DNA from: an uncultured bacterium
GTDB taxonomy: Bacteria > Patescibacteriota > Gracilibacteria > Absconditabacterales > Absconditicoccaceae
NCBI GenBank assembly: GCA_947168815.1
Contig: CAMVNG010000001.1
Coordinates: 124,001 to 188,000, forward strand
Direction of reading: 5' to 3'
Length of the DNA stretch: 64,000 nucleotides
The notes under the pieces were generated by a model. That model was not told the origin of the DNA. It searched no databases and saw nothing but the letters and a program-made list of their open reading frames with translations. The translations under genes and the position numbers were made by a program. Below, one piece after another: positions 7,063-54,432 of this stretch (the first letter of the stretch is position 1; each line of letters opens with the position of its first letter).

Positions 7063-7794
7063 TTACTTCAAGAGATTTTCAAAGTCCGCATCAACAAAGA
7101 CCTCCTTTTCCACATCAAGACTCTCAATATATGGAGTCTGATTTTTGATAAGAAGAGACCAAAGTCTCAAGGCTGGTATCCTATCAAGGAAAGCTTTTGC
7201 CTCCTTCATGTCAGATACCGTAATTCCTCTGTTAAAAGAGACATGAAGTTCGCCAATAACATAATTGTTTGTCTTTGCCCACAGTTCAGTTATCTTCGAA
7301 TAATGAGCAAGAAGAACGAACATAACAAGTCCTGAGTTAACAATGAGCGGAATGCCAAGAAGTTCCGTCGGAGTATTGATACTAATCTCAAGCGAAGGAT
7401 GACGAGTTAGAGGCTCATGACTTAAAAAGTCTTCTGTTTCCTGACTCTCGATACAGCCAAACTGACGGAAGATAAACTCAGTAGGATCATCCTTCTTCAT
7501 CAAAGAAAATCCAAACTGATTATCACCCAACATCAACTGCTCAACCAGGTGAGAAATAGAATTCAAGGGGACACCATCCTTTGCAATTCTCAACTCAGAG
7601 TCAGAAAGTTCTCCGAACCATTCCTTCATGAAATCAAACTGATCCAACAAAACACCCTTGTGATTACCAATAAATGGCAAAGCCCTAAACGTCTTATCAG
7701 ACCACACTTCAAACTGGAAAGATAGCGTACGAGTTTTGTTCTCTTCTTGACCGCCATCAATCACTTCCTTAAATAATTCACATAACTGTTTCAT
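7063..7794 (-). CDS. Hypothetical soluble protein, TGA-free
   Basis: 243 aa, no membrane segment, no family recognised. The sequence looks like a well-folded cytoplasmic protein, rich in Leu, Phe and acidic residues, with a central STPTELLGIPLIVNSG-like region. Its 13 glycines are all GGN. The codon choice (GTC, CTC, GAC, AAG) is less A/T-ending than in the housekeeping genes. The leader on the minus strand reads CAAAAAAAACAAAAACAAATG, matching the leader type shared by the orphan class. It lies directly downstream of the candidate structured RNA (7845-8125), so it may be expressed by read-through from that promoter. It has a strong terminator of its own. Confidence 0.8.
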   Translation of the reverse strand: MKQLCELFKEVIDGGQEENKTRTLSFQFEVWSDKTFRALPFIGNHKGVLLDQFDFMKEWFGELSDSELRIAKDGVPLNSISHLVEQLMLGDNQFGFSLMKKDDPTEFIFRQFGCIESQETEDFLSHEPLTRHPSLEISINTPTELLGIPLIVNSGLVMFVLLAHYSKITELWAKTNNYVIGELHVSFNRGITVSDMKEAKAFLDRIPALRLWSLLIKNQTPYIESLDVEKEVFVDADFENLLK

Positions 7795-7844
7795 TTGTTT
7801 TTGTTTTTTTTGGGGTTATTTTATGTTTTATTATCTTAATAAGG

Positions 7845-8125
7845 AAGAGGACAGATGAATCACCTGCCCTCTTTGAGTCTAAATTAGAGTAGAATAAGGA
7901 GGGAATCTTCGGTCTACCTCAAATGCTCATTTTATTCTTCATAACAAGCAAATTTTGTTCCTACAACAAAGCTCATAACGGAAAAGCAATAATACATTAA
8001 TTAAAGCTACACATAACCGCTTGCCTCAAAGAGGTACTCTACTCAAAGAATAGAAAGTCCACCAGAAAAAGACTCAATTTACTGATGGCAACAGAGTGAA
8101 GGACTCCTAATCACTTCTTTCTGTA
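7845..8125 (-). ncRNA. Candidate structured RNA or long structured leader
   Basis: The 373-bp gap between the giant gene and the 7063 gene has no sensible reading frame, but its base composition differs from ordinary spacers. On the minus strand it follows a TTGACA-type promoter. CTTTGAGT.AGAGTA (8048-8035) can pair with TACTCT...ACTCAAAG (7891-7871), enclosing a roughly 140-nt domain. A local hairpin AGTGA..AGG/CCT..TCACT lies near the 5' end. A strong final hairpin AAGAGGrCAGrTG/CAyCTGyCCTCTT (7845-7873) could act as a terminator. I could not match it to RNase P RNA, tmRNA, SRP RNA or 6S RNA. It could be an orphan small RNA or the 5' leader of the 7063 gene. Confidence 0.45.
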
Positions 8126-8130
8126 TGATA

Positions 8131-8161
8131 ATTATATAATCAAATAACCAATAATTGTCAA
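8131..8161 (-). promoter_or_regulatory. Strong sigma70-type promoter of the candidate RNA
   Basis: TTGACA (8161-8156) is followed by a 17-bp spacer to TATATA, or a 19-bp spacer to TATAAT. It lies immediately after the giant gene's stop codon and points away from it, implying an independent transcript. Confidence 0.65.
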
Positions 8162-8167
8162 GATGTA

Positions 8168-11100
8168 TTAATCTTTTATTTCATAATCTTCATAGGCTCT
8201 TCTCAACATCAACCAAGCCCATTTCCTTATTTCAACAACATTGATAGGATGCTCAATTTTTGTCATTATTCATTTTCTCTTTAATGCCTTTAGATGTAAG
8301 TCATAATAAGAAGCACCAGTTAAATTGTACTTATCTCACCACAATACTCTAGATAAAACAGTTCCAAATTGAGCTCTCGTTACTACAGCATTAGGATTAA
8401 ATGTCTCTACATTAATTCACATCAATCATAATGCACAAGCCCTCTTAGAATATTGTTTAATCTCTTCTGATTTCCAATCAATTTCATTATCAATAAAACT
8501 ACAACGATCAGGTATTACTTTTGGCTCCTTTCTTCATAATACATTAACCACATAATTAACCATAATCTTTGCCATATGTCATCTAAGAAGTACTCAATCA
8601 GGATTTGATTCATCCTCACGTTTTGTTGTAATTCAATATTTATAAGCCCATTGATATAATGTTAAACTTAAATCATTATCTTTATCAGTTTCTTTTGGCT
8701 GTACAACCTCTTGTAATCAACTTTCTTGAGCAGCTCAATGCTCCTCTTCTTCTGGAATTATCACTTTATCTTCTCTAGGTACTATTCTTCCTCATCATCC
8801 TCATGCCTGTCATGATGACTGACCTTGATCATCAGGATTTACTTTCCATACCACTCAAATTTCTATATCTCTATCAGGCATCAATCCATTCTCAGGATAA
8901 TTTGTCCATTCAACAAACAAATATCATTTCTTTGTTGGTGTATCCAAACTAATAATATCTCAAGAAGAATATAATTTAGTCTGTAATACAGATCAATCTG
9001 TATCAATTACCTTTAATGTATGTTTAGCTGTATCACTCCATTGTGCAATTAATAATACTATTCAATTATCTTCACCAGTTAAGTTGATAACCTCCTGACC
9101 ATCTGAATACATATTATTATCTTCATCTAACCATCACTTAAAATATGATCAAGTCTTTACAAAAGTATTTACAGCTAAAGCTCATGTTTCATCATAAGTG
9201 AAAGTTTGATCTGCCATAGGTGTTCATACTCATCAATTCTTAAGATATCTAACCTTATACATATTTGGATTAGCATTCATCTTTACTATTGAATCATAAG
9301 CAGGAACATTGAATGTATGAGTTAATACTACATCTCAATCATCAAAATGATATCATGACTTTGCATATCATGTAAATGTTACTTCTGCTTCATATAAGTA
9401 CATTCATGAACCATCAATATGGTCAACTCAAGTTTCAGCTAATGTAGAAACCTTATAACTATTTCTCACATAACTTGCTGTATAAACCTGATCTTGTACA
9501 ACTGGCAATAACTCAGGTTGCCAAACTAATGTATGTCATATTCTACTTCGATTTGGAATTTGTAAATCTCAAGTAGCTGTCATATATAGATATGTATTTG
9601 AAGACTCCTCATCTCAATCTTTAAAAGTAATTGTATAAAGTCTATCTTCCTTATCATATTGAGCTACATATGTTGTATCTCAAGTTATTCATTCCAGACT
9701 AGGAGACCAAGTATTATTGAATGTATAAATATAGCGCTCATCTTGAGGTCTTACCGGAGTTGATCAACCATAAGTTGGCACAGTTCAATATGGAATATTA
9801 TTTACTTCAAATAGCTTTTCTCAATCATAATTATTAAATATTGCTGTATATAGATTAGTTTCTTGAGTATACGTCGCCATATAAGTTGCATTTCATACTA
9901 CTTGAGAAACTGCAGGAGACCATGTATCAAAATGATATGAATATTGTGCATCTCAATCTTTTTGAGGTGTCTCTCAATTATAAACAGGAGTTGTTCAATA
10001 TGCTACAGCTGCATCTGTTTCTAATACTGTTCCATCTTCATTCTTCCATATAATTTTATAAGTATTTGTTGTTGTAGTATAAGTTGCTGTATAAACTGCA
10101 TCACCAGAAACTGTTGCTCAATCAGATAATTCAGGATCCCATCATGCAAATGTATACGTATATTGAGCTGTTCAAGTTTTTGTTGCAACCGGTGGAACAA
10201 TTCATAAACCATAATTCAATGTTTGACTTTCTATTTCACTTCCATCATCATTTTTAAAGATTATCGTATATTGCCTCAAAGTACTATCATAAGTTGCTGT
10301 ATATGTTGCATCTGAAGTTACTTCATCTACTGCAGGACTCCATCATGCAAATGTATACGTATATTGTGCTGTTGCTGACTTTGTTGGATCTGCTGGTTTT
10401 ACAATACTTGCAGCTGGTGTTCCATATGCATATTCAGCACTTGATATTTCTGTTCAATCTTCATCCTCAAATGTAATAGTATATTCATTTACTGTTGAAC
10501 TATATGTTGCAGTATATGTCGCATCTGATGTTACTTCAACTACTGCAGGACTCCATCATGCAAATGCATAGGTATACTGTGCTGTCGCTGACTTTGTTGG
10601 ATCTGCTGGTTTTACAATACTTGCAGCTGGTGTTCCATATGCATATTCAGCACTTGATATTTCTGTTCAATCTTCATCCTCAAATGTAATAGTATATTCA
10701 TTTACTGTTGAACTATATGTTGCAGTATATGTCGCATCTGATGTTACTTCAACTACTGCAGGACTCCATCATGCAAATGCATAGGTATACTGTGCTGTCG
10801 CTGACTTTGTTGGATCTGCTGGTTTTACTATATCTTCAGCTGATGTTCCATATGCATATTTTGTACTTGATATTTCTGTTCAATTTTCATCCTCAAATGT
10901 AATGGTATACTCATTTACCGTTGAATTATATGTTGCAGTATAAACACTATCTTCTGTTATAGCACTAGGAACAGGATCCCATCACTTAAAACTATAAGTA
11001 TAGTGTTGATCTGCAGACTTACTTGGTTCTGCTCAAACGTATTGTGGAATAGTATTATAATCAGCATAATATTCATATAACTTAGCTCCATTTTCATTCA

Positions 11101-14100
11101 TGAAACTTGCCTTATATTTATTAATTGACCAATTTGCTACATATGATCTATCCCCTGTACTTCATGCTGGAATTACTAATGTTAAAGATAATTCCTGCAA
11201 ATCAGTTCAAGTCCATCATATAAAAGTATATCAATCCTTAACAGGATTCTTAATTTCAATACTTCAACTTTCAATTGAATATTCTAACGGATTTGTATCT
11301 CATTGTTGTAATGAACCACCATCTAAATTATATGAAATACTGTACATAATAGGTGTTCGCCTTGCTACATAGCTTCTATTACCAGTAGAACCTTGAGGTA
11401 TTACAACAGTTTCTGTTTTCTCAGAAAGTTCTGTTCATTCCCATCATGCAAAAGTATAATACTCTCTTACCGGATTATTTAATGTAATTTCTGTATCTGT
11501 TATTGAATAAGATTCTGGATTTGTCTTTCATGGTTCTAGGCTTCATCATGCTAAATTATATGTTATTTCATAAGTATCTTTTGACCATACAGCATATAAA
11601 ATAATCTCTCAATTATCTATATCTGTCAATCTATTTACTGATGCTCAATTATTATAAGTTGGCTCAGTAGCTCATTGATTTTTACTCCATCATAAGAAAT
11701 GATATCAATTTCTAGTGAAAGAATTATTTGTTAATAACCTATCCTCAGTATATCCTACCCCACTAATATCATCCATATCTCATATTCCTCAATTTGCATT
11801 AAACTTAATGACATAATGATTCTCATTCCATTGAGCTGTTGATGAACTATTGGAAGCAGGCATTTCACTAAATTGTGGATTCCATGAATCAAAAGTAAAT
11901 CATGTGTTAATTAAACTAAGACCAGCTGGAAATTCAACCTGTCTACCATAGTTAAAATCAATTCATGTTGAAGTCGAACCATCAGAGAACACAGCTCCAA
12001 CTCAAGCATTAAATGTAAATGTATAAGAACTTCTATGATAATAATACTTTATTACCAAAGAATTATTTGATAATACAATTCAAGTCTTTTCTGACGGTGT
12101 ATCAAATCATAGAATTCAAATTCTTGCTCATGTAACTACAGAATGAGTATTTGCAGAATAATCTAATCATGAATAGAATTGATAATTCTCCTCATCTCAT
12201 CACTCAATAGGCTCTATATAATGTTCTACTCTATATGAACCAGTAGAATTTTCTTCCCATTGTGCAAATAAAGTTATTTCTCAATTATCATCAGATGTTC
12301 AATTAGTAATTGTATCCAAAATTATTGATTCACCAGCCCTAGACCATCATATAAAATGATATCCAAGCTTTTCAAATTTATTTCATTCTTCTGTATTACT
12401 AGGAAGCTGAATAGTATCTGAATAATATCCTGTTATATCATCAACACTTCCCTCGGTTGCTCAGCTTCCATCAAAATGTATTGTATATGTATGTTCTCTT
12501 ATTATTGGAGTTGCTACAATATTTGATGTTCAAACTTGATAATTCAATACTGAACCATTATAAGTTACATTATTAATAGTAAATCATGAGAATGAATATC
12601 CTCCATCAACCAATCAAGTGAAGATAATATTTTGACCATAATAATACTGACTTAATAAAGGAGATCTCTGTATACTAGCATGTGGTACATTAGTTTCATT
12701 ATAATTATATGATTTTCTAGTATAGAAAAGCTTTATTACAAGATTTCATTCTGGATCAATTGCTGCTGTATCTTGATATTCTGAAATATCTGTTAAATCT
12801 ATTTCATCTACAACATCTCCATTAATTCTTGCTTTTGAATAAGAATATCATGGAATATCACCATCAGCTTTAGCAAGACTTGAAAGAGTTAAAATACTAT
12901 CTGTTTGTCAACTTAATCCTGTATCCGTTCCACTGAGATGATATTTATTACTTATTGCATTATTTTCTAGCATCTGAAAATAATGTTGCACTATATATGA
13001 TGTTTGTTCATTTGGAGATGCTGTTCATGTTAGAGTAATATTTGTACTTAATACAATTGAAGTTCAAGGATTATATGACTGAGTTCAATCATTCCATACT
13101 GGAGTATTATATCACTGCCTAGCCGTCAAATCAGGAAGTGTAATTGCATTTTCTGCTGGACAAACATTTGATTGTACAACTCAGTTGTATGTTGATGGAA
13201 CCATGCATGAATCAGAACCTGTTCAAATTGGATTAACTCTACTATCTGTTGCATAAGTTACCGTATATGTTTTTTCATCAGATTTAGTTTGTGCATAAAG
13301 ATGTAACTCAGAATCAAGAGTTCAAGTTAATAATATTTGTCATGGAACCGCATATAATACTACTCCATCTGAAGGATATGTTTCACCTGTAGTCCATCAC
13401 AAAACATGAGGAGTTGCTACTGGTGCTCAGATTTCAGGTAATGTAAATACAAAACTACATTCAGTACTTTCAGGTTCTAGATTGTAAATGTCTTTAAATT
13501 GACATCAACTAAATGACCAATTATGATTATATGTTTCACCATTATAAACAAATCATGTATTACCATTAAGATGAATAGTTATATCTTTTCGACTTCAAAT
13601 CTTTTTATAAACAGCATAGAATGTCTTATTACCATCAATTAAATAAGAATCAACTACTCAAGTCTGGTTTGCTGAAGTTGCCCATCAAACAAATTCATAT
13701 CATTCTCTTTCAGCCTGTTCAGCTCCTTCTCATGTAAGTTGAAGTGTTCAATAATCTACATTCCTTGTAACTGTTTCATCTGTTCATTTATTTGTTCACC
13801 TATCATATGTTACAATATATTTATTTAATATAGCTCTATATCTAGCATATACATTTCTATCTCTAACAACATTACTCAAATCATCAACTTCTCATCATAC
13901 ATTCGATGTATACCATCCAGAGAATTCATAGGTATATTGATCTGTTGCTTGTTTACTTGGCGTTTCTCCTTGATATGTAGCATTAGCTCAATAGTCTACA
14001 GTCTTTGTACCTAATAATGTTGTACCATTCTCATCATAGAATGTCACTGTATATTGATTAACTGTTCAACTATAGGTAGCAAAATAAGTGGCATCTTCTG

Positions 14101-17100
14101 TTACTCACGTTAATTCAGGACTCCATCATGCAAATGTATACGTATATTGATCTGTTGCTGCCTTTGTAGGATCTGCTGCTGGTTTTACAATACTTGCAGC
14201 TGGTGTTCAATAATCATACTGTGTTGCCTCTTTTAATATTGTTGTTCCATTTTCATCTACAAAAGTTACCGTATATTTATTCAATGTTCAACTATAAGTT
14301 GCCGTATATATCACATCTGATGTTACCTCCGCTAATTCAGGACTCCATCATGCAAATGTATACGTATATTGATCTGTTGCTGCCTTTGTAGGATCTGCTG
14401 CTGGTTTTACAATACTTGCAGCTGGTGTTCAATAATCATACTCTGTTGCTGCCTTTAATACAGTTGTTCCATTTTCATCTACAAAAGTTACCGTATATCT
14501 CCTTGGATAACTATCAAATGTTGCTGTATATACAGCATCTTCAGTAGCTTCTACTATTGTAGGGGTCCATCATACAAAATGATAATTAGATTGTGCATCT
14601 GAAGGCTTTTGAGGAGTAGATCAATTATAAACAGGCAACACATTATACTCTACTTCACTTGATTGTAACTCATTTCAATCATAATTAACAAATTTAATTG
14701 TATATGAAGATTTCTTTAAATCCAAACAAGTATCATTGTGTGATCAACTTAATTGTGCTATACGATTTTCTACAGTAGCTGACGAAGTAAGAATTCACAC
14801 GATAGATCATGTATTTGTTCAATTACTAGTACAAAATGCTTTATTTCAAAGAGTTTCCAAAGAATCTGGTAATCTAACTCAAGTTACAGTTGATCAATTA
14901 AATGCATAATCTCATATTTCTCTCAAGCTATTTCATAATATAGTTATTGAACTTAATCTATTATTTTGGAATGCTCATCAACTTATCACTTCTACAGATG
15001 ATGGAATAGTAATATGATCAAGTCATCCACTATAAAATGCTCATCAACCTATTACTTTTAAGGTATTAGGTAAATTAATTTCTTTCAATCTCGTATCATA
15101 TGCAAAAGGTGCATCTCAAATTGATACTAATCACTCACTAATATTTACTGATGTGATATAAGAATTACTATGTAATGCTCCATTTCAAATAACTTCCAAA
15201 GAAGTAGGCAATGTAATTGCTCATGATAGACCTTTATGATTAAAAGAACCTCATCATAACTTCTTAATTGTATATAATCTTCAATTTCTCGTAATAGTAT
15301 TTGGCATTGTTAAATTCTCTGTCGTACAGCTATTACCTCAAGAATAATCAATAATTTCTGCATAAAATTGATTATCTGAAGTTCCTGTATAAGTTTCATA
15401 TTTATAACATCAATTCCATCCCGTTAAATGCTCATATTTTGGACTTTCCCAATTTGCATAAACCTCCAAATCTCAAGTCATAGTTAATGGGAAGCTAATA
15501 TCATAATCTCAAGTTATAGCTTTCCATCACAAGAAATCATAATCTGTTTTTATAGGATCTGCTAAAGGATTAGTTGAAACTACTTCATTAAAATCATAAA
15601 GAATTCATGATAAAAGATCAGTTTTATTCTTATCAGAATAGAATGATAACTGATATTTAACAGGAATATAAACTCCAGTTAATACTAAATCTGAGACAAT
15701 TGGTGTTGTAAATACAAACTTAGTATCACCAGAATACCATCAATCAAAAGCAAATCATTCCTTTACATAATCAGCTGGTCTTTCTACAATTTCATTATGA
15801 GCAACCTGCTTAACAATATCACCAGTAAATGGATTTTTAAAGGTAACACTATGAAGTTCTACAACCGTTCATGTAACAACTAAATTCTGTGTTACTACAG
15901 AATTTTCTGATAATTCTGTACTCCATCTTACAATATGTCATGCACCAGAATTAATCAAAGAATCAACACTTGTAAAAGTACTAATATCACCTATTCAATT
16001 ATAATAATCTAATGGTATTAATTTCGTTGTATTAGATTCTAATATTTCTGGATAATATCATGTTCATAAAACAGTTCCAGTTTCATCTACAAAAGTATAA
16101 GTATAGAGTTGATATACAGGAGAAATATATGCTCATGTATAATCTAGTGTTGAATTTTTTGTAGTCACATATCAAGTAACATAGACATTTTCTCATTTTC
16201 ACTGATTAAAAGCACCACCAGATAAACTAACCATAGAATCTGGAATATAAACACTTTTTATATTATTTCATGCAAAAGCATCACTCCATATAAATCTAAC
16301 ATTTTCTCACAATGATATTCATGTTAATTGATGATTTCTAAAAGCATTAAATTCAATTCACGTCAACGTTGATGGTAATTGAACATTTTTAATTTTAAAC
16401 TTAGATTCAGGACAATCAGTTTTATCATAAAATGCATTTTCTCAAATAAGTGATATTCACGACTCTACAATCACACTTTCAAATTCATTACATCTAAAAG
16501 CACCATTTAACCTTCATCAATTTAATCTTCATGGCACAGTTAGTGTTCATGATAAATTATTACCCTTAAATACAGCAGTTCAAAGTGTTGTTAATGACTC
16601 AGGAAATATAAACTCTCATTCTATTTTTTGAAAGTAAAATGCAGAATCTCATATTGATTCAAGTGTTTCTGGTAATTTCAACTTTTTTAAGGTTTGCTTT
16701 GTCTTACAATCACTTGTATTAAACGCATGATTATCAATTTTCGTAGTTCACTCTCAAATTTCTAATTCCTCAATAAGATTACATTCAAATGCTGTAGTTA
16801 CTTCTCAAACACTTCATGGTATTCTTAACTTTCATGATATATTATTATCAAAAAACGCTTCAGCTCCTATTCGTGTTAATGATTCAGGAAGTTCAAGGCT
16901 TCAAGATATATTGTTCCCTCTAAATGCTTTTTCCGCAATACTTGTTAATGATTCAGGTAAAATTAACTTTCCTGAAATATTTTGGTGTTTAAATGCATGT
17001 CCAGCAATAGATTCTAATGTTGTTGGGAATATAACTGATTTTAAGGATTTTTTGCTTGTACATCAATCTGTATTATATGCATTTGGATTAACCTTCGTAA

Positions 17101-20100
17101 TTCCCTCTGATATTATTAAGTTTTCAATTAAATTACATCTAAAAGCAGTTCCCATAATCTTACTCAATATAGTTCACGGAAATTTTAATGTTCATGATAT
17201 TTCATTACCATAAAAAGCTTCCTCTTCAAGATAAGTAAGATTTTTAGGGAATCTAAAACTTCACGATATATCATTGTTCTTAAAAGCATATTTATCTATC
17301 TTCAAAATAGAGTCAGGAAGATTTATCTCTCAAGTAATTATTTGTTTATCACTCGACCAAATAAAAGCATTGGAAGCAATCTCAACAACAGCCTCTCAAT
17401 TTATTTCACTTGGAACTACAAAATGAGTTAAACAGTCATCACTTTGCTCTCAATCAAATCATGTAATTTTTAATCATCATAATGTTGAAGTACCAGTTGT
17501 AAATGAACAATATAATTGCCTAAATTTTGGATATAATGTTACATTATCAACAATTCTAGTTTCAAAATCAAACTCTGTATTAAAACCAGAATCTTCATAC
17601 CAAGAAATAAATTGATAATTACCTTGTTTACCTGGATTAGCTGGCTCTTTTATAACTCATCAAGAAATCACTAAACCTGAATAATAACTAACACCATTTA
17701 TATCCAGAAAATTATACGTAAATACATCATCAATTTCTCACTGTAATACCAAATCACCTGTTGCTATTCAATCACTAGGTAACTCAGGAGACCATATTCT
17801 TCATTTTCACGACTCTACAACTCCAAGAGTTATCAAATCTTCATAAATAAAAGTGTCATTTGAACTACTATAATAACTCAAAGGAATGAGTTTTGTCATG
17901 TCAGATACCGCTCAAGATTCATAATATCAAGTTCATAATATATTTCATTCAGTATCTTCAAATGTATAAATAGATAATTTAAGGAAAATAGCATACAAAA
18001 TGGTACTTCCCGTAAATGCTTGTTCTCCAATTAATCACCTCCTTGCATCCTTATCTTCGCTCCATCATACAAAATAATATCAAGGTTTTTCAGCAGTATA
18101 ATTGGATAAATCAAGAGTAAACTCATATTCATCATCTAAATATTGAGCATCTCAAGATATTCATCAATTTGTTCAAGCATCAAATGTAATTACAGATCAA
18201 GTGTAATCTAAACAATTTAGTCACTGTTTTATTTGCCCTTGTGAACAATTAGCATAATCTTGGAAACAACGAACTGGAAAATAACGATTAGCATCATTGC
18301 TTGACACCGTTCAAAGTTGACCACTCTCAAATCTAAAATAAGAACGAGTACTTACTGATTGGATTTTCGATTGCTGATATTTTCATTGACATCTACCCCC
18401 ATCTTCACAATCTTTTGCAGTTCCTAATGTACTACCATTATTATATCACCATCATACTCATGGCATCCATAATTGTTCCAAAAGGCCAGATCGAGAAGTT
18501 CATCACAAAGCTTTTATTAAATTTGTAGCCTCTGAATCAGAAGGTACATGATAACCTTCATCACAAGGTCAACGCCTTGCCTGCCAATCATTATCTTTCG
18601 AAAAATATCACCATATATTTAAATATCAAGTTCAATTATTTGTAACATAAGGAAATTTATTTATATCAGTTAAATTACCAGAATAAGTACTTGGTATAAC
18701 GTTTCACACATCAACAGAACTATTCAAAAATGTAGTTGATTGTCCCTTATATAGTCAATTATTATTTCAATATTGAAAATATTTTCATCTAGAAGCAGCA
18801 GTATAAACATTATATGCTCATGTTTCTGTTGCCCCAACATTCCTATCTTGTATAGTATATCTCATCTTAGTACCATTTACATTTCACCACACAGTAATAG
18901 TTTGTGATTCACTATCATAGACCAATCATGTAGCAGGAGCATCAGCCAATAGAACACACACATTATCTATATCCACATAACCATAATCACAAGTATATTT
19001 CGCCTTATAAGTATGACCAGCAACTGTTCATGTTGAAAGAATAGGATTCTTTGTCAATACATCCAATCAAGTATCTGTTCAAGATCCAATCCATCATAAG
19101 AAAAACGCATGTTGCCTTGTTACACCAGGGAATTCAATATTTTCATACACTGAAGAAATATCTCAAGTACAAATATTAGTTTCATTATCACATTCCAAAT
19201 TAACAATATTAGTATCATCATCTAACATTCAGCCATTTCAATCCAATGTAATAATATCACTATTATTCTCTACTAAAGTAAGCACATAAATAGAAAAACT
19301 TTCTCAATCAGCAACAATCAATCATGTTCCAGCACTTTCTTCCTCATTAGTAACATCAACTACAGTAGTTTTTACTTCTTCAACAGTTTCTCACTGTTCA
19401 GAATCAACATCTTCCTCTACTGTTTCTTTAGTCTCTTCCAAATGGAATACTTTTACTTCTTGATTCTCATCAGTTTCAGCATTTAAGAAATCATCATTTA
19501 ATTTATAATCAAATAATACTTTAACAGTTTTACCTTCTACTGGTTGAACTTCAATTTCACCTGTTCAAACTTTATACATAAAAGAAATATCAAAGGCTAC
19601 CATCTTAGATTCCTTGCTCACATTATCCTGAGAACCAGCAATTTCATCTTTTACATCATCTAATCAATCATCTTCAGTAATTACTTTAATTCTAGGTTCA
19701 GTTCCTTCATAAAAAGAACCAACAGGAGCAATTACCTTAACAGCTACTCCATCATGCTCTAACTCTCAAACAATTTCTTCTTTATTCAAATTATTCTCTA
19801 CTACTTTTTCTTTAACTTTTGTATCTAAGAAACATCTTACATTATGCCATGATGTTCTATCTTTCTCATCATCATAAATCCCTTTACCAAAATACTTATC
19901 AATACTAAAGATTTCAGATTGTGTTGTTACATTCTCACTAGGAGTAACAGTCCAATAACTTCATACTCCATCTCTATATTCACCATTTGCAGAATAACTT
20001 CATGCTTTTGGCAATTTTAAATCACTCATAAACAATGATTCTAAACCAGAAATTTCATTTTCTGCAATACACTTTCATTCAACTTCAACATCTCATTCAT

Positions 20101-21214
20101 TACATTTCTCAAGTGAAGTTAATAAGATTGATCCTTTAGTACTTCTTGTCTTTCTTATAACAGTTGATACACCCTCATCATCAACATTTTCTCTAACATC
20201 TTGAGTATGAATTTTTCTCCAAACATTAACTAAATCATTCCACTCATTTTGTGTTGGAATATGATATCATGTTGGACATGGACCTTGAATTTCTTCATCA
20301 TCTCCATTCCAATCTCCAGTACTATTTACTTCTTCATTCTCAATAAAATCAGCAATTTTATCACCACTAATTCAATTATTACTTCACCATTGGTAATAAT
20401 TTCCATAAGATTTCTCATCTTCTTCACTAGTACTTTCAGCTCATAAGTTCTTATCCATAATTGTCATTGAATCTCCATTTTCTGGATCTATCAATACAAT
20501 AATTCCTTCATCACCACTAGTTGAATATTTGATAAATGAATCACTATCTCTAGTAAAGAAATATCTCAATCCTCAGATAATTTCTTTAGCAATATCACTT
20601 AAACTATCAATAAAGCTGAAATCTGTATCTTCAACAACTACTGCTGAAGAACTTTCTTCTTCCTTATTTTCTTCAACAGTTTCTTCATTTTCTCATAGAT
20701 CAGAACCTGTATCTTCACTTAAAACACATTCATTTTCTTCAAGATTATATCAATCCTCACATTTTTCTTGGAATACACATTCCTCATCATAAATACCATG
20801 AAGAATAGCATCTTCACATTGAATAGTATCAGTTCATTGTTCATCTTCAGTTGCTGTAACTGAATTAGTCTCTGTTTGTTCTTGAGTATCTGATTCTTCA
20901 GTTTCTGTCTGTTCTTGATTATCTTTTTCATCAGTTTCAGTCGGTTCTACTGTTCCATCATTTTCTTCTCATTCAGAAGAAAGAGATCCTTGTTCTCAAG
21001 TATCTTCATCAGTATCATCAGAAAAATTATTATCTCAACTTACATTATTTTGATCTCATGCTACATTATCATTTTCAGGAATATCAGAAATATTGGAATC
21101 TACACTTTGGTAAACTTCTTCATTTAAAACTAAATCATTAGCATAAGTAATTGGTGTTAATACCTCAGTACCTACAACTATTATCAATGATAAGATACCC
21201 AAAAATCTCTTCAT
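8168..21214 (-). CDS. Giant cell-surface adhesin-like protein (FISUMP, BspA LRR, InlB-type repeats, SLH)
   Basis: About 4348 aa in one frame when TGA is Gly; I checked the frame at both ends and several internal points. Order: signal peptide (MKRFLGILSLIIVVG), acidic Thr/Glu/Gln-rich stalk (25-190), a FISUMP-like region (DKNLGAESTSEE, YGNYYQWG, ending NVRCF at about 456), a second one (about 770-1000, ending FPVRCF), a BspA-type leucine-rich block (about 1255-1690), a second such block (about 1960-2155), a long series of roughly 70-aa InlB/Listeria-Bacteroides (Flg_new) repeats (about 2190-4085, YTYTFAGW type), a Gly/Glu linker (IVPREDKVIIPEEEE), and a C-terminal SLH-like region (about 4190-4340, RACALGLMGINVETFNP). 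The SLH-like end suggests wall or S-layer attachment; the repeats suggest a long fibre with exposed binding domains, plausibly for host-cell contact. The small ORFs listed inside are shadows. Confidence 0.88.
10281..10919 (-). repeat. Three near-identical 213-bp tandem repeats
   Basis: The period is exactly 213 bp (71 codons), seen from the repeated GTTGAACTATATGTTGCAGT at 10494 and 10707. Copies 2 and 3 are almost identical over most of their length, including silent sites, which implies recent duplication or gene conversion within the InlB-type repeat region. Confidence 0.9.
14050..14493 (-). repeat. Two near-identical 222-bp repeats
   Basis: GACTCCATCATGCAAATGTA recurs at 14119 and 14341, a 222-bp (74-codon) period. 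The units belong to the same InlB-type repeat family as the 213-bp units. Confidence 0.85.
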
Positions 21215-21250
21215 CAATTTTTACAATAATGTATTAAAACCGACATATCA

Positions 21251-22207: not shown

Positions 22208-22603
22208 TTAAGCTAATTTTCTAAGATTCTCGCACAATGATTGAGCTACATAAATACTCCTATCATTTTCAGTTTCACACTCGAACAAAACACCATAAAT
22301 CGGTGACTTATCCATAACGGCATCTGACTGATTACCCCTGACAATCACACTCATACTACCATGAGAAGAAGTATCAATAACTCTCAATACCTGATAAAAA
22401 TCATCATAAAAGCTTACCCACTGAGCATGAACCTTCGAAAAAGAATCACAAAGATGTTCACAAGAACACACATTGGCATTCCAAGCGGCCAAGATCATTT
22501 CATCAACCTTTAAATCGCTTTTACAATCAGCGATTGAAGAAAAAAGTAATGAAATCACCCTATAAAAGGGAATCTGAGATTGAAAAACATGTTTTATTTC
22601 CAT
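22208..22603 (-). CDS. Hypothetical protein, 131 aa, TGA-free
   Basis: A soluble protein with several cysteines (ADCKSD, NVCSCEHLC, LFECE, SLCEN). No family recognised; no membrane segment. The three glycines are GGN. Its leader on the minus strand is AAAACAATTAAGGTAAAAAGATAA, a looser match to the class leader. It is a monocistronic unit with a strong terminator, convergent with the 21722 gene. The TTGATA-17-TAAAAA sequence upstream is a possible but weak promoter. Confidence 0.7.
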   Translation of the reverse strand: MEIKHVFQSQIPFYRVISLLFSSIADCKSDLKVDEMILAAWNANVCSCEHLCDSFSKVHAQWVSFYDDFYQVLRVIDTSSHGSMSVIVRGNQSDAVMDKSPIYGVLFECETENDRSIYVAQSLCENLRKLA

Positions 22604-37295: not shown

Positions 37296-37324
37296 AATAA
37301 AAAAGCGTGTATAAAAATACACGC
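37296..37324 (-). terminator. Terminator after the 37330 gene
   Basis: The stem GCGTGTAT/ATACACGC is followed on the minus strand by TTTTTTATTT. Confidence 0.85.
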
Positions 37325-37329
37325 TAATC

Positions 37330-37692
37330 TTACTCTCACAGGAATTTCCCATGATAACTCACCATAAAGTCTGAAAGCTTTTTTCTAAATTTCGGACCTT
37401 TACTAACACTATTTCTTAAAGTTTCAAACTTTGAGCCTAGACTAAGACCCCCAGTCTCTAATTCAAAACCAAATAGCTTAGCAAATTCACTCCGAATTGA
37501 TTTCAGATCTTTCAAAAGAGTGTCACTACAGTCTTCATTTGTAATCCCCTTTGAAACGAAGAACTCATTATCTTTTAAAATTTCATCAGAGATACGAACA
37601 AACAGACTAAAACTAGAAATAACACCCCCATTTAAATTTGGATTAGTAGAAACCTTATCCAAAATTTCTAATTTTTTCTGAATGTAACTCAT
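37330..37692 (-). CDS. Hypothetical protein, about 120 aa, TGA-free inside
   Basis: A soluble charged protein (MSYIQKKLEILDKVS...). No family recognised. The ORF track starts it at 37716, but a TTGAAT-17-TATATT promoter sits directly against that ATG, so the usable start is probably ATG 37692. Nine internal glycines are GGN. The frame ends TGA GAG TAA just before the terminator: under code 25 the stop is TAA (37330), under the standard code the TGA at 37336. It belongs to the orphan class by codon use and monocistronic layout but lacks the AAACAAATA leader. Confidence 0.65.
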
Positions 37693-37714
37693 ATTCTCAA
37701 GATTTAATGATAAC

Positions 37715-37743
37715 ATAATATAATATTTTCAATAATCTAATTC
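37715..37743 (-). promoter_or_regulatory. Promoter of the 37330 gene
   Basis: On the minus strand TTGAAT, a 17-bp spacer and TATATT end immediately before ATG 37716. This makes the downstream ATG (37692) the likely start. Confidence 0.65.
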
Positions 37744-47176: not shown

Positions 47177-47208
47177 AAGATTCTCTGAAAACGAGAATCT
47201 TTTTTTAT
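47177..47208 (+). terminator. Terminator after the DUF5684 gene
   Basis: The stem AAGATTCTC/GAGAATCTT is followed by TTTTTTATT. Confidence 0.88.
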
Positions 47209-47211
47209 TAT

Positions 47212-47243
47212 AAAAAAGCTGAGAAGATAAAATATCTCCTCAG
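47212..47243 (-). terminator. Terminator after the 47265 gene
   Basis: On the minus strand the stem CTGAGgAGATA/TATCTtCTCAG is followed by CTTTTTTA. It starts 22 bp after the TGA of the 47265 gene and before the next in-frame TAA (47208-47210). Confidence 0.85.
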
Positions 47244-47264
47244 TTTCCCAGTGTTGTATCTCTT

Positions 47265-47564
47265 TCAACCAAAAACTTCATGAAGAACAGCATTAACTGA
47301 TCTATTCTTCCTCTCAAAGTTTTTAGTCAGAGGTGCTGCACCATCCTTCTCAACAATGGTTATCGTTACCCAAAGTGGAGTAACCTCAAAATGGACACCA
47401 CGAATTCGTTCAACAGGACAGCCACTACACCACTCCTTCATAAGGATACCTCCTTTGACCTTTGGAAGATTCTCCCCCTGAAAAGAATAATACACACTAC
47501 GGCCATAATCTACATATGTGTAGTTCAAGGCCTCATTCCAATTGTTAAATACTTTTTTAAACAT
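47265..47564 (-). CDS. Hypothetical protein, 99 aa, apparently ending at TGA
   Basis: A small protein with a CSGCPVERIRG motif (about 48-58) and a beta-rich C-terminal half (HFEVTPLWVTITIVEKDG). No family recognised. Its eight glycines are GGN. The frame closes at TGA (47265-47267). If TGA were glycine here, translation would continue through the terminator stem and T run to TAA 47208, which an ordinary terminated mRNA cannot encode. So TGA is probably the functional stop, or the gene came from a standard-code source. Canonical promoter at 47600-47627 and leader AAAAACAAATACAATT. Confidence 0.65.
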   Translation of the reverse strand: MFKKVFNNWNEALNYTYVDYGRSVYYSFQGENLPKVKGGILMKEWCSGCPVERIRGVHFEVTPLWVTITIVEKDGAAPLTKNFERKNRSVNAVLHEVFG

Positions 47565-47599
47565 AATTGTATTTGTTTTTCTTTTTTATTTTCAAGCAT

Positions 47600-47627
47600 T
47601 TTATATCCTTATTGAAGCCAATGTCAA
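47600..47627 (-). promoter_or_regulatory. Sigma70-type promoter of the 47265 gene
   Basis: A perfect TTGACA, a 16-bp spacer and TATAAA on the minus strand. The remainder of the 47565-47824 gap is AT-rich and divergent to the sortase gene; no other gene is seen. Confidence 0.75.
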
Positions 47628-54048: not shown

Positions 54049-54432
54049 ATGCGTATGAATAATTATCACGTTGTCGTAGAACTCGACGAAAAAGGAAAAC
54101 GCAATGTCGGAAAAATCATCGACATTATGGAAAAAAGAAAGTTTGCTTTCAAAGAAAAAAAAGATCGAATTCTTGAGCCGGGGCTAAGAAGAGAGACTAT
54201 CGAACTTGAATCAAAAACCAGAAGCCAACGGTTCCTTGACCCTCTCAAAACAAAGTATGCAAAGAATAAACTCGAGAAAATGCTACAACACTTTATCTAC
54301 AACCACACAGATCTCATATTCGAAACAGATCGCCCAATTGTGGATGTTGAAGGTGTAAAAGCATTCATCTATCTCAACGTTTATCCAAGCAACAAGAAGC
54401 CTCCAATTATTTGTGTCTATAAAGAAGATTAA
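54049..54432 (+). CDS. Hypothetical protein, 127 aa, TGA-free
   Basis: A basic soluble protein (MRMNNYHVVVELDEKGKRNVGKIID..., C-terminal strand FIYLNVYPSNKKPPIICVYKED). No family recognised. Its four glycines are GGN and codons such as GTC, CGC, CTC and GGG are commoner than in the neighbours. The leader CTAAAAAACAAATACAAAA and private promoter and terminator place it in the orphan class. Confidence 0.7.
   Translation: MRMNNYHVVVELDEKGKRNVGKIIDIMEKRKFAFKEKKDRILEPGLRRETIELESKTRSQRFLDPLKTKYAKNKLEKMLQHFIYNHTDLIFETDRPIVDVEGVKAFIYLNVYPSNKKPPIICVYKED

Follow-up and report, generated by a model that had tools for sequence, protein, structure and literature searches.

The genome described here carries genes in two genetic codes. 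Its ordinary genes follow the resident code, in which UGA is read as glycine and CGA and CGG as tryptophan, and a further set of about 105 genes, termed class B, is shown by codon alignments among three species to use these three codons with their standard meaning. One member of this set is a 99-aa gene, for which a preliminary description had reported a TGA that seems to act as a stop. The gene lies in the window, that is, the whole 64-kb stretch of DNA that was analyzed, and it belongs to a genome of 1.29 Mb (G000). Two congeners, G001 and G002, were used for comparison; both are fragmented partial MAGs, of which 762 kb and 394 kb, respectively, were covered. Genes were called by an in-house script.

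The Resident Code and Its Decoding Apparatus

The in-frame use of TGA is widespread in G000, where 14,981 of the 25,633 glycine codons (58%) are TGA. The genome has a single class-I release factor, which is RF1-like (PDT motif), scores below the prfB cut-off, and is encoded by a gene that itself contains 9 TGA codons. G001 and G002 likewise have one RF1-like class-I release factor apiece, and neither RF2 nor a second class-I release factor was found in the three genomes. The UCA-anticodon tRNA of G000 has the acceptor GCG...CGC-U, in agreement with the glycine criteria of PMC8629427. Judging by this gene inventory, a cognate tRNA is available for UGA in the resident cell, and there is no known release factor for it. 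Both tmRNA and SmpB are present in G000.

For Absconditabacteria, a reassignment of CGA and CGG to tryptophan has also been predicted (PMC8629427). The TCG and CCG tRNAs of G000 have a Trp-type look, with the ends ...CUG or ...UUG as in tRNA-Trp; despite these Trp-like acceptor ends, they are labelled as arginine tRNAs by ARAGORN and by code 25. In all three species, the ordinary genes carry a T-rich tract at −14 to −23, which may serve as a start signal for resident ribosomes, and Shine–Dalgarno sequences are almost absent. A giant code-25 ORF at 8168–21217 (−) of the window, 4349 aa long and with 259 TGA codons, probably encodes a surface protein. The described members of the lineage (PMC8080830, PMC13059738) suggest that the source bacterium is an epibiont or a predator.

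The 99-Residue Gene and the Other Class-B Genes of the Window

As had been claimed, the 99-aa gene ends at a TGA just before an intrinsic terminator (Table 1). Reading this TGA as glycine takes the frame through the hairpin and the T-run and adds 19 residues before the TAA is reached, which also agrees with the earlier account. The hairpin has a predicted stability of −16.3 kcal/mol (z −4.9), and none of 200 shuffled sequences was equally stable. The TAA does lie past the expected end of the mRNA, with one nuance: a second, weaker hairpin, AGATTCTCGTTTTCAGAGAATCT, with the broken T-run TCTTTTT is located further downstream, at approximately 47178–47203 (−), so some transcripts of the gene could extend past 47208. 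This hairpin is located inside the terminator of the convergent gene and could catch transcripts that escape the first terminator.

Relatives of the 99-aa gene were found in G001, G002, G042, and G039. They are 99–104 aa long, all four are TGA-free, and they stop with TAG, TAA, TAA, and TAA at the aligned position, with a similar terminator hairpin after each, which argues that the TGA marks the real C-terminus of the family. Standard-code homologs ending at the same residue had been proposed as a check; the four relatives do end there and are members of the same genus or family, and the 99-aa family has no match in viral_contigs, phages, plasmids, or 380 genomes of the phylum. The AlphaFold model of the protein (mean pLDDT 85.5) is folded to the last residues, and a fold search with it against PDB and BFVD gave no hit at E ≤ 0.001. 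The second class-B gene ends in TGA GAG TAA, exactly as described before, 10 nt ahead of a terminator. This gene has CGG at codon 75, and its orthologue in G001 ends in TGA TAG.

Table 1. Class-B genes of the window and the signals around them (positions in the window).
Feature	Position	Strand	Remarks
99-aa gene P0001, class B	47265..47564	−	8 Gly, all GGN; zero internal TGA
Terminal TGA of the 99-aa gene	47265..47267	−	aligned with the TAA/TAG stops of four relatives
Intrinsic terminator hairpin CTGAGGAGATATTTTATCTTCTCAG	47219..47243	−	stem begins 21 nt past the TGA
Terminator T-run CTTTTTT	47212..47218	−	directly after hairpin CTGAGGAGATATTTTATCTTCTCAG
TAA ending the code-25 reading	47208..47210	−	8 nt past the stem, beyond the T-run
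A-rich leader AAAAACAAATACAATT	47565..47580	−	abuts the ATG of the 99-aa gene; class-B style
Sigma70-like promoter of the 99-aa gene	TTGACA 47622–47627, TATAAA 47600–47605	−	
Second class-B gene	37330..37716	−	TGA at 37336–37338, then GAG TAA; 9 GGN, no internal TGA
Terminator hairpin AGCGTGTATTTTTATACACGCT	37304..37325	−	3′ of the second class-B gene; a T-run comes after it
Class-B ORF	7063..7794	−	TGA-free, TAA end; 243 aa, 13 GGN
Class-B ORF	22208..22603	−	TGA-free, TAA end; 131 aa
Class-B ORF	54055..54432	+	TGA-free, TAA end; 125 aa

Stops and Terminators of Class B

TGA-free ORFs were assigned to class B if their leader was A-rich or their codon usage foreign. Class-B genes have GGN-only glycine, no internal TGA, foreign codon usage, and usually a terminator of their own. 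The approximately 105 class-B genes of G000 end in TAA (60), TAG (26), or TGA (19, a few of which are ordinary genes, e.g., C1:432057 and C8:375), and the congeners contribute 48 (G001) and 40 (G002) genes from the sequence covered. No gene with class-B signals was found to carry an internal TGA, the apparent ones being terminal TGA cases or ordinary genes, and no intermediates between class B and ordinary genes were seen. HU-like and ribosomal TGA-free genes were put with the ordinary genes because of their T-rich leaders, and the near-terminal TGA codons of EF-P, uL5, uS13, and LemA-like ORFs are real glycine codons and not stops. Contamination was rejected, as the class-B genes share their contigs, among them one of 470 kb, with code-25 genes that lie on either side of them.

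In G000, a terminator follows within 60 nt in 11 of 16 TGA-ended TGA-free ORFs, compared with 24 of the 13,005 TGA codons inside ordinary genes (Fisher p = 4 × 10⁻²⁶), so the pairing of TGA and terminator is not due to chance. Over the three species, the corresponding counts are 30/39 for class-B TGA and 47/2,875 for internal TGA of ordinary genes (p = 1 × 10⁻⁴²), and in class B, terminators are about as frequent after TAG (34/45) and TAA (76/109) as after TGA. The arrangement was found in at least 15 genes of G000 and about 20 of the two congeners. Stops are swapped within families: TGA/TAG/TAA in the 99-aa family, TAA/TAA/TGA in a 105-aa family, and TGA/TGA/TAG in a TldD-like family. As far as alignments can tell, TGA is shown to be one of three interchangeable stops of class B.

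Leaders, Promoters, and Codon Usage

Class-B genes are preceded by an A-rich leader, AAACAAATAC-ATG, in which A enrichment peaks at −12/−13 in all three species. The motif ACAAAWA occurs in 40 of 87 class-B upstream regions versus 25 of 474 for ordinary genes (p = 2 × 10⁻²⁰), and the leader was found in none of 41 ribosomal genes. Expectation maximization (EM) yielded the promoter consensus TTGAAT-N17-TATAAT for class B, and the Bacteroidetes promoter motif TAnnTTTG is not enriched upstream of these genes. GC3 is 0.31 in class B versus 0.17 in ordinary genes. The codon usage of TGA-ended class-B genes matches that of the rest of class B, unlike that of ordinary and ribosomal genes; the distance between class-B and ribosomal codon usage is 0.89, and the rare codons GGC, CGA, and CTG are used in class B.

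An Independent Test of the Code at CGA and CGG

The meaning of CGA and CGG provides an independent test of the code. In ordinary orthologues of the three species, these codons are aligned with tryptophan (TGG) 604 times and with unambiguous arginine codons 14 times, whereas in class-B orthologues they are aligned with tryptophan 0 times and with arginine 30 times (p = 3 × 10⁻³⁰ and 1 × 10⁻¹¹). The test is not circular, since neither tryptophan nor the aligned residue was used in the definition of class B. CGA or CGG is present in 51 of the 105 class-B genes of G000. Arginine at CGA and CGG, taken together with the terminal TGA, means that three codons have their standard meaning in class B.

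Conservation and Mobility

Class-B families are common to the three species at 30–60% identity. Between 77 and 82% of the synonymous glycine differences of ordinary orthologues involve TGA, compared with 0/72, 0/69, and 0/68 in class-B orthologues (three pairwise comparisons that are not independent of one another). In syntenic G001–G002 class-B pairs, 0 of 16 synonymous glycine differences lead to TGA (P = 7 × 10⁻¹¹), and in some class-B families that occupy the same locus in two species, synonymous change is saturated and TGA is absent. At the level of codon comparison, class-B orthologues are thus shown to keep the standard code while diverging in three species. No family was found to have a class-B member in one species and a TGA-rich one elsewhere, except for ribosomal-type genes and one weak match at 41%.

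G001 and G002 have the 99-aa family at one shared locus, within a block of class-B genes flanked by ordinary genes, and its 105-aa neighbor in this locus ends with TAA in G001 and with TGA plus a terminator in G002. The class-B set also moves, since most class-B orthologues of G000 are found at different loci in the congeners. In the TldD-like family, five relatives at 38–47% identity are without TGA as well, and the stops of all six members are TGA, TGA, TGA, TAG, TAG, and TAA. When 84,980 species were scanned, close relatives of this family were found only in the same lineage, and the next one, at 33%, in DPANN archaea. Among 49 genomes of the bacterial family, those of this genus were the only ones in which a 252-aa class-B family was detected.

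Gene Content and Search for Mobile Elements

Class B includes thymidylate synthase, NDK, PhoH, a TldD-like protease, and many small unknown proteins. Scanning the genome turned up further genes whose frame crosses a terminator solely through the reading of a terminal TGA as glycine. Among them are the TldD/PmbA-like protein (557 aa, 28 GGN, TGA only at the end), two proteins with 15 GGN apiece (226 and 252 aa), and the thymidylate synthase (G000:C2:229878-230783 (+), 20 GGN), which is the sole thyA match found. The C-terminus of thymidylate synthase closes the active site, and for this reason, read-through should matter for this enzyme. Locus L125 (G002:C38, 1732–4179 (+)) contains a class-B gene of 815 aa with 60 GGN, no internal TGA, and a tandem TGA TGA end.

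This content resembles phage accessory genes, which would fit a mobile pool and delivery to a host or prey alike. A PHROG scan of 80 class-B proteins gave 13 families, all metabolic or unknown, and no virion family; capsid, portal, terminase, and integrase were missing, which does not agree with a prophage or phage region. An array of about eight consecutive small TGA-free genes (80–127 aa) lies between code-25 genes at 7220–10427 of locus L043 (G000 contig C13); most have their own leader and terminator, and some are mutually similar. No attC-like repeats were found in the array, only short leader- or terminator-like similarities, so integron-like cassettes were not recognized. The TldD-like, PhoH, and ThyA proteins have no match in viral_contigs by single-protein scans, which use exact peptides and are insensitive. 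No standard-code carrier of class-B families was found in viral_contigs, phages, plasmids, the 380 genomes of the phylum, or the 84,980-species scan.

Possible Explanations

Class B is probably a resident gene set that is kept readable for standard-code cells, either as a shuttling pool or as genes delivered to a host or prey. As the resident cell lacks RF2, its tRNA-Gly(UCA) would read a class-B UGA as glycine. The ribosome would then run into the terminator or off the end of the transcript and be cleared by tmRNA/SmpB. Non-stop translation, one of the readings offered in the preliminary description, should therefore occur in the 99-aa gene if the resident cell translates it, with tmRNA and SmpB available for rescue. 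Class-B CGA and CGG codons would insert tryptophan. As resident decoding would give glycine at UGA and tryptophan at CGA, class B does not appear to be shaped by translation in the resident cell; resident selection would have purged such codons, which points to selection, or a continuing supply, in standard-code cells. The set may take one of two forms, namely a mobile pool that shuttles between standard-code bacteria and the epibiont or a group of genes passed on by the epibiont to its host or prey. A more specific version, which is put forward tentatively and seems rather doubtful, is that a predatory or epibiotic recoded bacterium keeps a gene set in the standard code of its host for transfer to, and expression in, the host or prey. 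Recoding would then separate the genes read by the bacterium itself from those read by its victim.

The main rival is repeated one-way acquisition from an unsampled standard-code source such as prey, phages, or plasmids, which is conceivable though on the unlikely side. The genes would be mostly non-functional or tolerated and lost before adapting, and the TGA would be a leftover stop read as glycine. The foreign codon usage, with its higher GC3, and phage-like enzymes such as ThyA, PhoH, and NDK fit this process; the differing loci of G000 and its congeners fit turnover, and 126 HGT genes as well as competence genes have been described in Vampirococcus (PMC8080830). However, the same families recur in three species, the syntenic G001–G002 pairs combine saturated GGN change with zero TGA, and intermediates are not seen. 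The closest TldD-like relatives in the scan are in the same lineage, with the next at 33%, and the 252-aa family was detected in this genus alone among the 49 genomes, both of which speak against one-way arrival. The earlier suggestion of a recently acquired standard-code gene thus stands in its first half, as the standard code is supported by about 105 genes, the two congeners, and the CGA/CGG test. "Recently acquired" fits poorly, because the families occur in three species, some of them share loci with saturated change, and the nearest relatives belong to the same code-25 lineage.

It is highly improbable that the 99-aa gene has simply lost its stop, with an ancestral TAA or TAG turned into TGA and the protein extended or left non-stop. 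One transition would be enough, and TAA or TAG is found in four of four relatives, but the same layout of TGA and terminator recurs across G000 and its congeners, and the use of CGA and CGG as arginine and the leader are left unexplained. As the pattern is genome-wide, stop-loss of a single gene was rejected as a general account. Context-dependent decoding, also proposed before, in which UGA ahead of a terminator or in class-B mRNAs acts as a stop in the resident cell, has a similarly slim chance. TGA does occupy TAA/TAG positions and swaps with both; nevertheless, no RF2 or second class-I release factor was found in the three species, UGA has a cognate UCA tRNA-Gly, and class-B genes also violate the tryptophan reading of CGA and CGG, whose resident tRNAs look Trp-type, so a stop-only mechanism is insufficient. 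That class B merely comprises highly expressed resident genes avoiding TGA can hardly be true: ribosomal proteins are indeed TGA-poor (133 TGA, 349 GGN), but their codon usage is distant, class B uses rare codons, its leader is missing from ribosomal genes, and it ends in TGA and reads CGA as arginine, so high expression was rejected as the cause on codon usage and CGA meaning.

Significance and Comparison with Known Systems

No precedent was found for one bacterial chromosome with two gene populations in two codes, both kept across species, and none of the literature searched describes a recoded chromosome with a resident set of standard-code genes. It becomes testable whether recoding hinders gene flow or serves to partition the genes between the cells that read them. 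The producing cell could be recognized by two markers, arginine or tryptophan at CGA and the C-terminus at UGA. Annotation with code 25 gives a wrong end and a wrong translation to about one gene in ten in such genomes.

Code-11-compatible phages have been predicted for Gracilibacteria and Absconditabacteria via CRISPR spacer matches; they fit both codes and mostly avoid TGA as a stop, and the prophages of these bacteria use code 25, with a high density of in-frame TGA (Liu et al. 2023, PMC10746230). Code 25 is also used by an Absconditicoccaceae phage described in 2026 (PMC13059738). Like the compatible phages, class B lacks in-frame TGA in a UGA=Gly host and has clustered end stops (TGA GAG TAA, TGA TAG). 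In contrast to these free phages, it is scattered in the chromosome, ends in TGA without a backup stop, lacks virion genes in the PHROG scan, and differs at CGA and CGG as well.

In Vampirococcus, UGA recoding has been suggested to protect from imported DNA via read-through (PMC8080830). As with HGT genes in such recoded bacteria, the UGA stop of class-B genes would be read through. However, class B is a large set that persists in three species as orthologous families, shares leader and terminator signals, and shows no shift toward the resident code. The starts of class B resemble those of the Bacteroidetes type (Baez et al. 2019, PMC6847099) in lacking a Shine–Dalgarno sequence and being A-enriched at −12/−13 and −6, but the class-B promoter is not TAnnTTTG, and for this reason, the resemblance does not identify a host. 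The recoding of UGA together with CGA and CGG as tryptophan (Shulgina and Eddy 2021, PMC8629427) is followed by the ordinary genes and by the UCA, UCG, and CCG tRNAs, whereas class B keeps the standard meaning of these three codons.
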